Shown here: positions 366 through 19,900 of the stretch, piece by piece | Layout: each line of letters opens with the position of its first letter | Numbering within the stretch: the stretch's first letter is position 1 | Source of the DNA: Oscillospiraceae bacterium | GTDB lineage: Bacteria > Bacillota > Clostridia > Oscillospirales > Oscillospiraceae | DNA: 33,075 bases | Reading direction: 5' to 3' | Assembly: GCA_017435615.1 (NCBI GenBank) | Contig: JAFSET010000024.1 | Coordinates: 1 to 33,075, forward strand | Notes under the pieces: model-generated | Database searches by the model: none | Seen by the model: only the letters and a program-made list of their open reading frames with translations | Told to the model about the DNA's origin: nothing | Translations under genes and position numbers: made by a program

Positions 366-391
366 CCGTAGGGGACGGGTTTCCCGTCCCT
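366..391 (+). repeat. REP-like palindrome, subtype with GGGACGGG stem
   Basis: A GTAG-type foot is followed by an 8-bp perfect stem (GGGACGGG 372-379, CCCGTCCC 383-390) with a TTT loop. An inverted copy lies at 470-496. The two bracket the terminator of the upstream gene. The stem differs from the GGACACCCC stem of the other REPs in the window, so this is a second subtype. Confidence 0.75.
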
Positions 392-409
392 TTGCGTACA
401 GCGTAAAAC

Positions 410-459
410 AAAGAAGCACATCCTTGCTGAGTGATCAGCAGTGATGTGCTTCTTTTTTT
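410..459 (+). terminator. Rho-independent terminator of the GGGtGRT-family gene
   Basis: AAAGAAGCACATC (410-422) pairs with GATGTGCTTCTTT (443-455). An inner TGCTGA/TCAGCA stem sits at the tip and a run of seven T residues follows (453-459). It lies about 55 bp after the stop codon at 355. Confidence 0.9.
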
Positions 460-469
460 GCATATTCGG

Positions 470-496
470 TGGGACGGGAAACCCGTCCCCTACGGT
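470..496 (-). repeat. REP-like palindrome, inverted partner of 366-391
   Basis: The stem GGGACGGG (471-478) and CCCGTCCC (482-489) is followed by CTACGG, so its GTAG foot points the opposite way to the copy at 366-391. It ends directly next to the stop codon of the RAYT transposase gene (498-500). Confidence 0.75.
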
Positions 497-497
497 G

Positions 498-1019
498 TTA
501 TTCATACCCTTTATTTTGCATGATCCATTTTCGCGGATTGTTGTCGATGTATTCCCATACCTCGTTATAATCCTGTTGATTTCGGATCACATGGTCGTAA
601 AACCGAGGTTGCCAAATATTGCAGCCGTATTCTTTGTTGCAAAACCGTTTGAATGTGCCGACAAAACGTGAGATAACAGATGATCTTTGGCCGATGCTCG
701 TAGGGACACCCCTCCCGGGGTGTCCGGTTTGGGCGTGGATCGTGATCAAAAGGTGGATATGATCCGGCATGATCACATATTTATCTACAGAAAAAATATC
801 GTAAAAATCATATAATTGTCCAATGACCTTATCGGCGATCTGTCCACAATGCAATAATTCCAACCGTGGCTCATGCGGACACCCCGGGAGGGGTGTCCCT
901 ACGGAAAAACGGGAAAGTATTTTCTTTCTGTTTTGGGTACAGACGGTAATGAAGTAGGCACCGGATTGGCTGTAATCGTATGGGATGATACGATTGGACT
1001 TTCTGTTTGGCAATTCCAT
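498..1019 (-). CDS. REP-associated tyrosine transposase (RAYT, Y1/HUH family)
   Basis: A 173-residue single-domain HUH transposase of the RAYT group, which nicks single-stranded REP hairpins carrying a GTAG foot. Visible motifs are GAYFITVCT near residues 20-28, the HUH motif MPDHIHLL (His87, His89) and the C-terminal segment DYNEVWEYIDNNP. The catalytic tyrosine is probably Tyr151 in that segment (inference). The length is normal for the subfamily and there is no frameshift. The oddity is that two loop segments, residues 40-48 (VGTPLPGCP) and about 99-107 (GHPGRGVPT), are the translation of two perfect, oppositely oriented REP sequences lying inside the gene. The gene lies 25 bp downstream of the sugar isomerase on the same strand, with an AAAGGA site about 11 bp before the ATG. 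Confidence 0.88.
   Translation of the reverse strand: MELPNRKSNRIIPYDYSQSGAYFITVCTQNRKKILSRFSVGTPLPGCPHEPRLELLHCGQIADKVIGQLYDFYDIFSVDKYVIMPDHIHLLITIHAQTGHPGRGVPTSIGQRSSVISRFVGTFKRFCNKEYGCNIWQPRFYDHVIRNQQDYNEVWEYIDNNPRKWIMQNKGYE
699..726 (+). repeat. REP copy inside the RAYT coding region (left)
   Basis: A CGTAG foot, 9-bp stem GGACACCCC/GGGGTGTCC and TCCC loop, 28 bp in all. It is the exact reverse complement of 876-903. Read on the minus strand it encodes about GHPGRGVPT, just after the HUH motif. Confidence 0.92.
876..903 (-). repeat. REP copy inside the RAYT coding region (right)
   Basis: A 28-bp perfect inverted copy of 699-726, with the GTAG foot at the right end. It encodes VGTPLPGCP (residues 40-48) of the transposase. 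The pair has the same head-to-head arrangement as the intergenic REP elements. Confidence 0.92.
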
Positions 1020-2014: not shown

Positions 2015-2226
2015 CAAATTCTTATTTTGGAGCCGTTGCAGATTTTTTCGTAGGGACACCCCTCCTGGGGTGTCCGAAACAAAATTGGGCCTCGATGGGC
2101 CGATTTTGTTCCTGTGCATAAACGAAACAGAAAGATTTTGGCGCATCGAGCGCCAAAATCTTTGCGGACACCCGGGGACGGGTGTCCCTACGAGTTTTAA
2201 CAAACAGCTGGAAAAATAAGAAATTG
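2015..2226. repeat. REP-containing MITE-like element, full copy 1
   Basis: The outer imperfect inverted repeats CAAATTCTTATTTT (2015-2028) and AAAATAAGAAATTG (2213-2226) match at 13 of 14 positions. Inside are a left REP (2049-2075), a hairpin with loop TCGAT (CAAAATTGGGCC / GGGCCGATTTTG, about 2081-2109), a perfect 12-bp hairpin with loop ATCGA (AGATTTTGGCGC / GCGCCAAAATCT, about 2133-2161) and a right REP (2166-2192) with the opposite foot. It has no coding capacity. It fills almost the whole gap between the isomerase start and the permease stop. Copy 2 lies at 12703-12914. Confidence 0.82.
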
Positions 2227-2230
2227 TTTT

Positions 2231-3142
2231 TTAACGGAGCAGGGCGGCGGACAGGGCAAAGAGCACCACGGTCACCAACGTCAGCGCTGACAATGCAGAG
2301 GAAATCTGCACCCGTTCCGACGGCTCGTCGGCAAACACCGGGATCACATAAGGCGGCGGCAGGATGACCATCAAAAGGGCTGCCCCTTCGAAAATCATAC
2401 CTTGCAGCACCGTGCGGTTTAACAGCACCATAATGCCCAAAATCACTGCCATCACGGCCAAACGCATCAAAATCAGGCCAAAGGTCTTTTTCCAGGGGAT
2501 TTGACTGGGCACAAGATCATAGCCCACGGTCAGCAGAATGATGGCACCGGTGGGGGCGGAGATAAAGTCAGTCACGGCGTCAAATATGCCGCTGACACCC
2601 CAGGAACCCATGGCATTGTACAGCCCGGTGGAACCCATCAGAACGCCGGCCAGCACGGCCCACAAAATAGGCGTATGGCACATATCCCGGACGATGGCCT
2701 TCCTATCGGTCTTTCCGGACAGCAGAATTTTATACAGGGTAAAGACAAACAGGGTCTGGCCGATATCCAGCAGAGCAAATTCGGAAACGCTCTTATCCGG
2801 AAACAGCAGAACAAACAGGGCATAGCCCAGCATACCGGCCTCAAAGCCGGCAGCCAAAAAACCGCAAATTCTGCCTCCCAGGCGGAAAAGCCGGACGATC
2901 AGCTTGCCCAAAAGCAAACTTACACAGCACAGCAAAAACATAACCACCGGCAGGATCAGAGAACGCAGTGTGTACTCCGCCGTGGCGAAGGCCCCAAGGA
3001 GCACAAAGGGCAGCGTGATATTGACCACTACCCACTTCAGCGCGTCAATGCCGTCCCGGGAGATGAAGCGTTTGCTGCGGCACAGCATACTCAGCGCCAG
3101 TACCAAAAATACCGGCAGGGCGGTTTGCAAAACAGCAGTCAT
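2231..3142 (-). CDS. AEC-family (auxin efflux carrier type) permease
   Basis: A 303-residue integral membrane protein with about ten hydrophobic segments. It opens with LQTALPVFLVLALSMLCR and then VVVNITLPFVLLGAFA, the N-terminal pattern of AEC permeases. An inverted-repeat fold of two five-helix halves is expected for this family. Members carry organic acids or amino acids; the substrate here is unknown. Its ATG lies 1 bp after the fucU stop codon, so the two are almost certainly translated in a coupled way. Export of an acid end product such as lactate, or uptake of a co-substrate, would fit a deoxy-sugar operon but is inference. The ribosome binding site is weak (AAGG about 13 bp upstream), which also suggests coupling. 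Confidence 0.85.
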   Translation of the reverse strand: MTAVLQTALPVFLVLALSMLCRSKRFISRDGIDALKWVVVNITLPFVLLGAFATAEYTLRSLILPVVMFLLCCVSLLLGKLIVRLFRLGGRICGFLAAGFEAGMLGYALFVLLFPDKSVSEFALLDIGQTLFVFTLYKILLSGKTDRKAIVRDMCHTPILWAVLAGVLMGSTGLYNAMGSWGVSGIFDAVTDFISAPTGAIILLTVGYDLVPSQIPWKKTFGLILMRLAVMAVILGIMVLLNRTVLQGMIFEGAALLMVILPPPYVIPVFADEPSERVQISSALSALTLVTVVLFALSAALLR

Positions 3143-10635: not shown

Positions 10636-10667
10636 TCGCTTTTTGAAGAATTTGTAATTCCATAAGG

Positions 10668-10697
10668 ACCGGCACCGCTTCGGCGGTGCCGGTTTAG
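10668..10697 (+). terminator. Terminator after the ABC transporter operon (copy 1)
   Basis: ACCGGCACCGC and GCGGTGCCGGT form an 11-bp stem closed by a TTCG tetraloop, with a short TTT after it. A sequence duplicate lies at 10882-10910. Confidence 0.8.
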
Positions 10698-10845: not shown

Positions 10846-10881
10846 CGCATTTTCGGAAAAGGTGCTTTTTTGACACTCTGG

Positions 10882-10910
10882 ACCGGCACCGCTTCGGCGG
10901 TGCCGGTTTT
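10882..10910 (+). terminator. Duplicate of the ABC operon terminator (copy 2)
   Basis: The same ACCGGCACCGC-TTCG-GCGGTGCCGGT stem as at 10668, about 214 bp further on, here followed by TTTT. The shared block begins with GGACCGG in both copies, so it is a duplication rather than chance. Confidence 0.8.
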
Positions 10911-10956: not shown

Positions 10957-11111
10957 CGTAGGGACACTCCTCCGGGGTGTCTGCAAGGAATTATGCTTAT
11001 TAAGGCTTAGAATTTATGCCATTTATTCTTCTTTTTGTGTAAGAAAGAGAATAAAATCAGCCCATCGAGGTCCTATTTTATTTCGGACACCCCAGGAGGG
11101 GTGTCCCTACG
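10957..11111. repeat. REP pair element (diverged copy)
   Basis: A left REP (10957-10982, slightly degraded: GGACACTCC) and a right REP (about 11085-11111) in opposite orientation. Between them is a hairpin with loop ATCGA and arms ATAAAATC and ATTTTAT, like those in the copies at 2015 and 12703. Together with the terminators and the 10714 element it accounts for most of the 622-bp gap between the transporter operon and the dipeptidase gene. Confidence 0.75.
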
Positions 11112-12702: not shown

Positions 12703-12914
12703 CTTCAAATTTCAGTTTTTAAATTCGTTGCGGATTTTTTCGTAGGGACACCCCTCCTGGGGTGTCCGAAACAAAATTAGGCCTCGATGGGCTAATTTTG
12801 TTCCTGTGCATAAACGAATCAGAAAGAATTTTGTGCATCGAGCCCTAAAATCTTTGCGGACACCCGGGGACGGGTGTCCCTACGAGTTTTGATAAACAGC
12901 TCAAGGAATAAGAA
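12703..12914. repeat. REP-containing MITE-like element, full copy 2
   Basis: A near-duplicate of 2015-2226 with the same order: left REP (12741-12767), hairpin with loop TCGAT, hairpin with loop ATCGA, right REP (12858-12884), and flanks ending in AATAAGAA. The first hairpin differs from copy 1 at two paired positions that both keep pairing (T-G to T-A and G-C to A-T). The second hairpin is partly degraded here. It sits between the dipeptidase stop and the terminator at 12957. Confidence 0.82.
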
Positions 12915-19874: not shown

Positions 19875-19900
19875 GTAGGGACACCCCTCCCGGGGTGTCC
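19875..19900 (+). repeat. Solo REP
   Basis: A single GTAGGGACACC...GGGGTGTCC palindrome. The right flank GAGTTGATAAGCAG resembles the right flank of the full elements (GAGTTTTGATAAACAG), but the central hairpins and the right REP are missing. Confidence 0.8.

Follow-up and report, generated by a model that had tools for sequence, protein, structure and literature searches.

Inverted REP hairpins inside the reading frame of RAYT transposase genes in Clostridia

Results

A RAYT gene with a REP pair in its reading frame

The window, by which we mean the whole 33,075-nucleotide stretch of an Oscillospiraceae bacterium contig that was analysed, contains a RAYT gene with two REPs inside its reading frame, as well as further REPs of two types (Table 1). 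We confirmed the ORF as RAYT/TnpAREP-like on the basis of its HUH and Y-xxx-NP motifs and its predicted TnpAREP fold. The Pfam profile Y1_Tnp (PF01797) scored above its gathering threshold (26.8 bits, cut-off 23); the NCBIfam model NF047646 (REP_Tyr_transpos) scored below its own (72.7 bits, cut-off 80), and we claim no NCBI-equivalog name. The top PDB match was 4er8, the E. coli TnpAREP with a REP hairpin, both by sequence (E=5e-7) and by the fold of an AlphaFold2 model (E=2.9e-7). Together with the HUH and YIDNNP motifs, these matches bore out the original prediction of a RAYT. H87 and H89 were invariant in alignments A1 and A2, and Y157, the probable catalytic tyrosine, was invariant in A1 and present in at least 90% of A2. 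The genome of origin (G000; 2.27 Mb, 98 contigs, 77% complete) contained one such gene at E<=0.001. The host is probably a gut Oscillospiraceae, since the RAYT protein of G039, a genome of the same genus, is identical over its last 150 residues to that of an Oscillospiraceae MAG from roe deer gut (JAFULI010000121.1; loci L036 and L089). The window gave no Rfam family at threshold and no PADLOC match, and the single matching PHROGs family is of unknown function.

Table 1. Features of the window, with positions, strands and supporting information
Feature	Position	Strand	Basis or context
RAYT/TnpAREP-like Y1 (HUH) transposase ORF, 173 aa	498..1019	-	ORF list, profile and structure matches
HUH motif codons H87-I88-H89, between both REP arms	753..761	-	sequence and alignments A1, A2
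Y motif codons YIDNNP, residues 157-162	534..551	-	sequence, alignments, motif form of PMC6006769 Table 1
In-gene REP arm 1, 5' arm on coding strand; GTAG foot 899-902; reads VGTPLPGCP	876..903	-	
In-gene REP arm 2; GTAG foot 700-703 on template strand; reads GHPGRGVPT	699..726	+	
Nearest dispersed pair of in-gene REP type (2050-2075 + / 2166-2191 -)	2050..2191	.	between ORFs 1045-1977 and 2231-3142
Dispersed inverted pair, in-gene REP type	12742..12883	.	
Dispersed pair, in-gene REP type, one arm degenerate	10958..11110	.	
Single dispersed REP, in-gene type	19875..19900	+	
Inverted pair, second REP type (GTAGGGGACGGGTTTCCCGTCCC)	368..493	.	abuts RAYT ORF 3' end

Both in-gene arms are 28 nt long, 100% complementary and in opposite orientation, with 149 nt between them. 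These two identical REPs were as originally described, each with a GTAG foot and neither breaking the frame. In translation, arm 1 lies within SVGTPLPGCPH and arm 2 within TGHPGRGVPTS (arm peptides at codons 39-48 and 98-107), and the two flank MPDHIH. They had been expected to fall in loops on either side of the HUH motif, which is where the AlphaFold2 model of the 173-aa protein (mean pLDDT 87) places them: arm 1 mainly between strands E36-39 and E52-55, ahead of helix 57-72, and arm 2 in the stretch linking strand E87-94, the site of H87 and H89, to helix H115-131. By block, residues 41-50 averaged a pLDDT of 76, residues 91-100 one of 79 and residues 101-110 one of 52; most remaining blocks reached 91-98, and both protein ends were low too.

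At <=2 mismatches, GTAGGGACACCC matched the window 11 times compared with 2.17 matches expected, and the own genome held 48 matches to the 23-mer at <=3 mismatches compared with 0 for the reversed control. In G000 the in-gene type occurred 46 times, twice inside the RAYT gene (reversed control 0). Chance origin of the REP matches was rejected on reversed-pattern controls, which gave 0 in every genome counted for most types; the control for the second REP type (GTAGGGGACGGGTTTCCCGTCCC) gave one match, in one genome (G055).

The pair recurs at the same two loops among relatives

We searched 99 genomes, 61 of the genus including the own genome and 38 of the order, and homologues were found in 38. 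These genomes yielded 64 matches besides the window, 49 of which were fetched, the remainder being mostly the weakest, and we added the best 80 of 502 named loci and 29 loci from 393 genomes of the class (54 with a match). Of the 159 ORFs, 141 were scored; the other 18, among them the 72% identical L033 with its interrupted frame, had only one of two anchor motifs or were truncated. An ORF was called a carrier when its arm-arm complementarity score was at least 14, a value also reached by 265 of 3,000 random pairings of arm 1 with the arm 2 of another ORF.

An inverted REP pair was present at the same two loops in 106/141 scored ORFs (29/45, 55/67 and 22/29 by set) and in 100/135 without duplicates, six carriers duplicating another row. 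Because alignment A1 was built from carriers and covers near relatives only, 106/141 overstates the share among all RAYTs. Among the relatives sampled this layout is the usual one, and the pair is no local accident. Carriers were mostly Clostridia; one (L145) belongs to a Spirochaete. The GTAG core was missing in 6/106 carriers and two usable feet in eight, so that later counts have n=100 and n=98.

In the aligned homologues of the 38 genomes, the same two loops hold gene-specific peptides, and the loop DNA is mostly an inverted pair with GTAG feet. The 98 carriers with both feet contained 113 distinct 24-nt arms, and their arm 2 sequences formed 13 groups at <=4 differences. The foot of arm 1 lay 12 or 13 residues past a conserved Cys in 77/99 cases. 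Arm 1 was read in two frames (94, in frame 0, and 5 of 99), and so was arm 2 (83 and 17 of 100). An own-type REP was present in the examined flanking DNA of only 34 of the 100 carriers scanned. We found no support for flanking REPs being arranged around the gene in a fixed alternating array; orientations of the nearest flanking REP within 300 nt were mixed (11 to 4 upstream, 8 to 6 downstream).

As a control, 30 loci in the class were chosen by NF047646. They were mostly long RAYTs of ~250 aa, with HUH not found in the frame chosen in 6/30, and an inverted pair scoring at least 14 occurred in one. This locus (L195) is a short MPDHIH RAYT with arms 266 nt apart, compared with 106-251 nt in carriers. 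A plasmid collection gave six matches, and none of the four examined (Leptolinea, Spirosoma, E. coli and Monoglobus) had the pair.

The pair is a DNA-level feature whose arms change in concert

When both loops were recoded synonymously, 60 times per carrier, the observed score was reached in 1/6,360 recodings, and mean complementarity was 22.9 as observed compared with 8.1 after recoding. The pair is a DNA-level feature. Across 48 disjoint carrier pairs with backbone identities of 0.40-0.97, arm 1 accounted for 167 changes and arm 2 for 175. At 126 positions both arms had changed, at 108 of them identically (permutation mean 38, maximum 60), and the partial correlation of arm distances, given backbone distance, was r = 0.92.

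All 196 arms of the 98 carriers formed at least 6 hairpin pairs under RNA parameters, and the two arms were identical over 24 nt in 29/98 carriers. Within genes, the arms differed at 157 positions in the 98 carriers, 64 being shared stem positions and 76 lying in loops. Because Watson-Crick pairing was kept in both arms at 54/64 of the shared stem differences, each arm is kept as a hairpin.

In a tree built without the loop columns, which is unrooted and has many unresolved forks, REP sequences largely followed RAYT clades by eye. Changes between carrier and non-carrier numbered 22 on this tree, compared with a shuffled mean of 31.3, and 0/500 shuffles were as low. RAYT gene and REP appear to evolve together.

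One clade comprises ten RAYTs that have no pair. In nine of them (L056, L059, L074-L080), 43-44 residues separate the conserved Cys from HUH, compared with a median of 53 in carriers, a difference of ~10 residues or about one REP; in the tenth, L139, the distance is 51. Loop 2 showed less contrast, with medians of 47 (carriers) and 44 (all non-carriers). Because L050, L065, L176, L178 and L179 are open ORFs of carrier loop-1 length without arm complementarity, a gene can stay open without the pair. On this unrooted tree, the lengths fit either gain or loss of a REP-sized block, with decay once the pair is unmaintained. As a separate observation, the RAYT matches L066 and L069 (G060, C78 and C77) start at the REP of arm 2, at query residues 98 and 96, respectively, and extend to the C terminus; tandem REPs 35 nt apart precede the match, an arrangement suggestive of a cut or a join in the gene at that REP.

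In many genomes, in-gene REPs match dispersed REPs

We counted four REP types across the genus, with in-gene copies subtracted by hand. The type was present elsewhere in 17/18 carrier genome-type cells and 47/226 non-carrier cells, and at least 5 copies were present elsewhere in 12/18 and 21/226, respectively. The contrast between carrier and non-carrier cells (pooled Mann-Whitney p=1.9e-14) held within the 33 genus genomes with a RAYT match (non-carrier cells 33/114, p=9.5e-10), but because rows are related, these p-values are not those of independent genomes. L041, which is unscored, was counted as a T8 carrier genome (G017) from its peptide and in-gene pattern matches, and L065, whose arms are decayed, as a non-carrier. 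An alignment of homologues had been proposed as a check on whether the segments vary with the REPs of each host; they do differ between genes, and REPs of a given type are enriched in genomes whose RAYT carries that type in-gene.

Exact subtype matches occur in G028, G111, G421 and G449, where the variants of the in-gene arms recur among the dispersed copies listed; G111, home of the L169 type, had 45 exact REP copies outside the gene. Other genomes had few copies at <=3 mismatches. In G019 (100% complete), 4/4 copies lay at the RAYT locus, two in the gene and two flanking it; the same locus held 3/3 copies of the type in G039 (82% complete), and in G135 (97% complete) 2/2 copies found were inside the gene. 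G043, with the T4 type in its gene, had 0 copies elsewhere. These four genomes indicate that the in-gene pair needs no crowd of dispersed copies. According to the original prediction, the same peptides in genomes lacking the REP would mark them as ordinary coding sequence; G019 alone presents this case to the letter, but it keeps the REP DNA too. Contrary to a simple rule of matching, the window's type was counted 40 times in G055 and 20 times in G032, and T2 35 times in G043 and 42 times in G009, with a same-type RAYT absent among the matches read in these incomplete genomes (77-91%; one weak match each excluded in G043 and G009).

We compiled pair lists by hand for G000, G055, G028 and G043, with both arms matched and the in-gene pair included for G000 and G028. 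Start-to-start spacing was 51-122 nt in dispersed pairs of four genomes and 177 nt (G000) and 180 nt (G028) in in-gene pairs. The in-gene spacing is longer because of the HUH-coding segment between the arms. Given this difference in spacing, the dispersed pairs did not arise by straightforward duplication of the in-gene segment. Two stem variants were combined in 14/15 dispersed pairs of G055, 14/15 of G028, 5/6 of G043 and 7/17 of G000; among in-gene pairs, variants were mixed in L032 and L040 and uniform in the window. Within G055, G028 and G043 the spacing of dispersed pairs was near constant, commonly about 56, 104 and 85 nt.

For REPs in other genes of the own genome, 30/48 loci were fetched, and nine non-RAYT ORFs of at least 100 aa spanned a REP. 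Pfam, run on 7/9 of them, gave one match, DUF3786 (L009), where the REP precedes the domain and may lie beyond the true gene, and no match for the remaining six.

Discussion

Relation to known systems

REPs inside tnpAREP genes have been known since 2018 (PMC6006769), and the clostridial pair is a variant of that phenomenon. Quentin et al. 2018 describe in-frame REPs in tnpAREP genes as a feature that predominates in subclass 2.4 and is unique to it; they treat this subclass as the same as group 4 of the RAYTs in Bertels et al. 2017. The insertions generally lie between HuH and Y, REPs flank the gene too, and the in-gene copies were suggested to affect the protein little (PMC6006769). Subclass 2.4 is marked by NH[IFV]H, WQ and YIxNNP, by an insertion between beta3 and alphaC, and by an 8-aa insertion ending alphaB (PMC6006769). 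The window's RAYT has DHIH, WQ and YIDNNP (A2 consensus NHIH), and the loop after its HUH strand contains arm 2. Compared by motifs, it resembles subclass 2.4 in being a short TnpAREP with the WQ and YIxNNP motifs and in-frame in-gene REPs. Unlike subclass 2.4 as described in that text, the genes studied here carry an inverted pair with one arm before and one after HUH, occur in Clostridia, have flanks mostly without own-type REPs, and show concerted change of both arms. The anatomy given in the original prediction held; the presence of REPs inside tnpAREP genes had already been described.

The E. coli TnpAREP (4er8) is similar in fold, in its HUH and Y motifs and in its GTAG-footed hairpins. 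In E. coli, paired inverted REPs form BIMEs, but the rayT gene (L192) has no in-gene pair, its best inverted pair measuring 8 nt. The REPINs of Pseudomonas, in which two inverted REPs form a unit, are dispersed elements, whereas here RAYT coding sequence lies between the arms. The REPIN unit is duplicated by a RAYT (PMC8049555). Two TnpAREP groups recognise REPs in a GTAG-dependent manner and co-evolve with their own REPs (PMC8266576). Intragenic REPs translated in frame have been reported in various host genes, many of them for DNA synthesis or repair (PMC3733652); in contrast to these, here the gene is that of the transposase itself, with fixed sites in many species. The portions seen of PMC8266576, PMC8049555 and PMC2817692 contain nothing on in-gene copies, and the titles and opening abstract lines of the literature searched mention neither a pair round HUH nor such clostridial genes. 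Within that literature, the paired layout, the concerted change and the reach in Clostridia look new.

Possible roles of the in-gene pair

We propose that RAYTs of one clade in Clostridia retain, inside the ORF, an inverted pair of their cognate REP hairpins, in loops that bracket the HUH strand and accept many peptides while the frame stays open. Conservation lies in the DNA, as two hairpins with GTAG feet; their stems change in step with each other and correspond to the dispersed REPs in many of the genomes. If the encoded RAYT recognises the in-gene hairpins as it would dispersed REPs, the gene carries a label of its own substrate. Whenever the gene is inherited or transferred, the matched REP pair would come along and could seed a dispersed REP family, and enzyme and repeat would thereby stay matched; the RAYT would presumably both bind and cleave at the in-gene pair, and the seeding step is likewise presumed. 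We consider this carried seed and matched label the likeliest explanation, ahead of autoregulation and passive insertion, and would give it an even chance of being right. A stronger version, in which the pair is an obligatory working part and self-contained REP seed, every gene transfer founds a matching REP family, and new families arise from mutated in-gene hairpins and then spread, is conceivable but doubtful.

Alternatively, the pair may act in the mRNA or single-stranded DNA of its own gene and keep RAYT expression low, either through RAYT bound to both hairpins or through a nuclease acting on the 28-bp arm-arm stem, with protein-hairpin co-evolution keeping the arms matched. The mRNA segment folds strongly (-106 kcal/mol, z -6.4 compared with 200 shuffles), with the arms paired together around the HUH codons, although any inverted pair would fold so. 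The pair also persists in genomes with few or no dispersed copies, where seeding would leave no visible product, which suits such autoregulation. The arms often differ (29/98 identical), yet the hairpin of each is retained, so that the best-conserved feature is not the duplex between them. We regard this role as unlikely.

The pair could also be functionless, the result of one or a few REP insertions into tolerant loops, with template switching at hairpins or inverted repeats and gene conversion with dispersed REPs keeping the arms alike. The arms do lie in loops of lower model confidence, the two frames of each arm suggest repeated insertion or frame change, other species have REPs inside other genes (PMC3733652), and 35/141 scored ORFs had no pair at threshold. 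Against such passive insertion, the layout recurs in the same two loops of 106 ORFs, and the pair persists where dispersed copies to convert from were not found (G135, and G019 outside the RAYT locus). The differences between arms mostly keep the stems, for which inter-arm homogenisation alone is insufficient, although template switching at the level of the hairpin could suffice. We find this explanation as improbable as the preceding one.

That the peptides are ordinary coding sequence, conserved for protein function and with only a secondary resemblance at the DNA level, is hardly credible. Arm-1 peptides were 75% identical compared with 65% for the backbone, averaged over paired relatives, and are thus no more variable than the rest between near relatives; a VG start and a PT end recur, and G019 has nearly the window's peptides without dispersed REPs. 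This reading fails, however, because across the clade the peptides change widely (VGTPLPGCP, VGGGALDAP, VGASIARP and others), differing between distant relatives, while complementarity and hairpins are kept; moreover, nine of the ten RAYTs in the pairless clade have no such ~10-residue block in loop 1. A conserved-peptide origin had been ruled out by the synonymous recoding, which destroys the complementarity.

The proposed seed and label bears on what keeps RAYTs and REP families matched and on the origin of new REP families. Because many of the RAYT genes studied here carry the likely substrate sequence, the gene by itself, irrespective of its flanks, yields a candidate enzyme-substrate pair, and ~100 natural RAYT-REP pairs become available for mapping recognition residues against hairpin bases.

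Other repeats in the window

The GTAGGGGACGGGTTTCCCGTCCC pair directly follows the RAYT stop (359-502), and between its arms lie an inverted repeat and then a T run (406-459). This second type has 16 copies in the own genome at <=2 mismatches, where the only RAYT match carries another type. In relatives, RAYTs with the GTAGGGGACGGGTTTCCCGTCCC type inside the gene are L051, L116 and L128; the genome of L051, G058, contains 85 copies. ORF 2231-3142, which borders the nearest dispersed pair, matches the membrane transport protein family PF03547 below the Pfam cut-off (23.9 compared with 25.7). Two identical 30-nt GC-rich palindromic repeats (GGACCGGCACCGCTTCGGCGGTGCCGGTTT) are located at 10666-10695 and 10880-10909, 214 nt apart.
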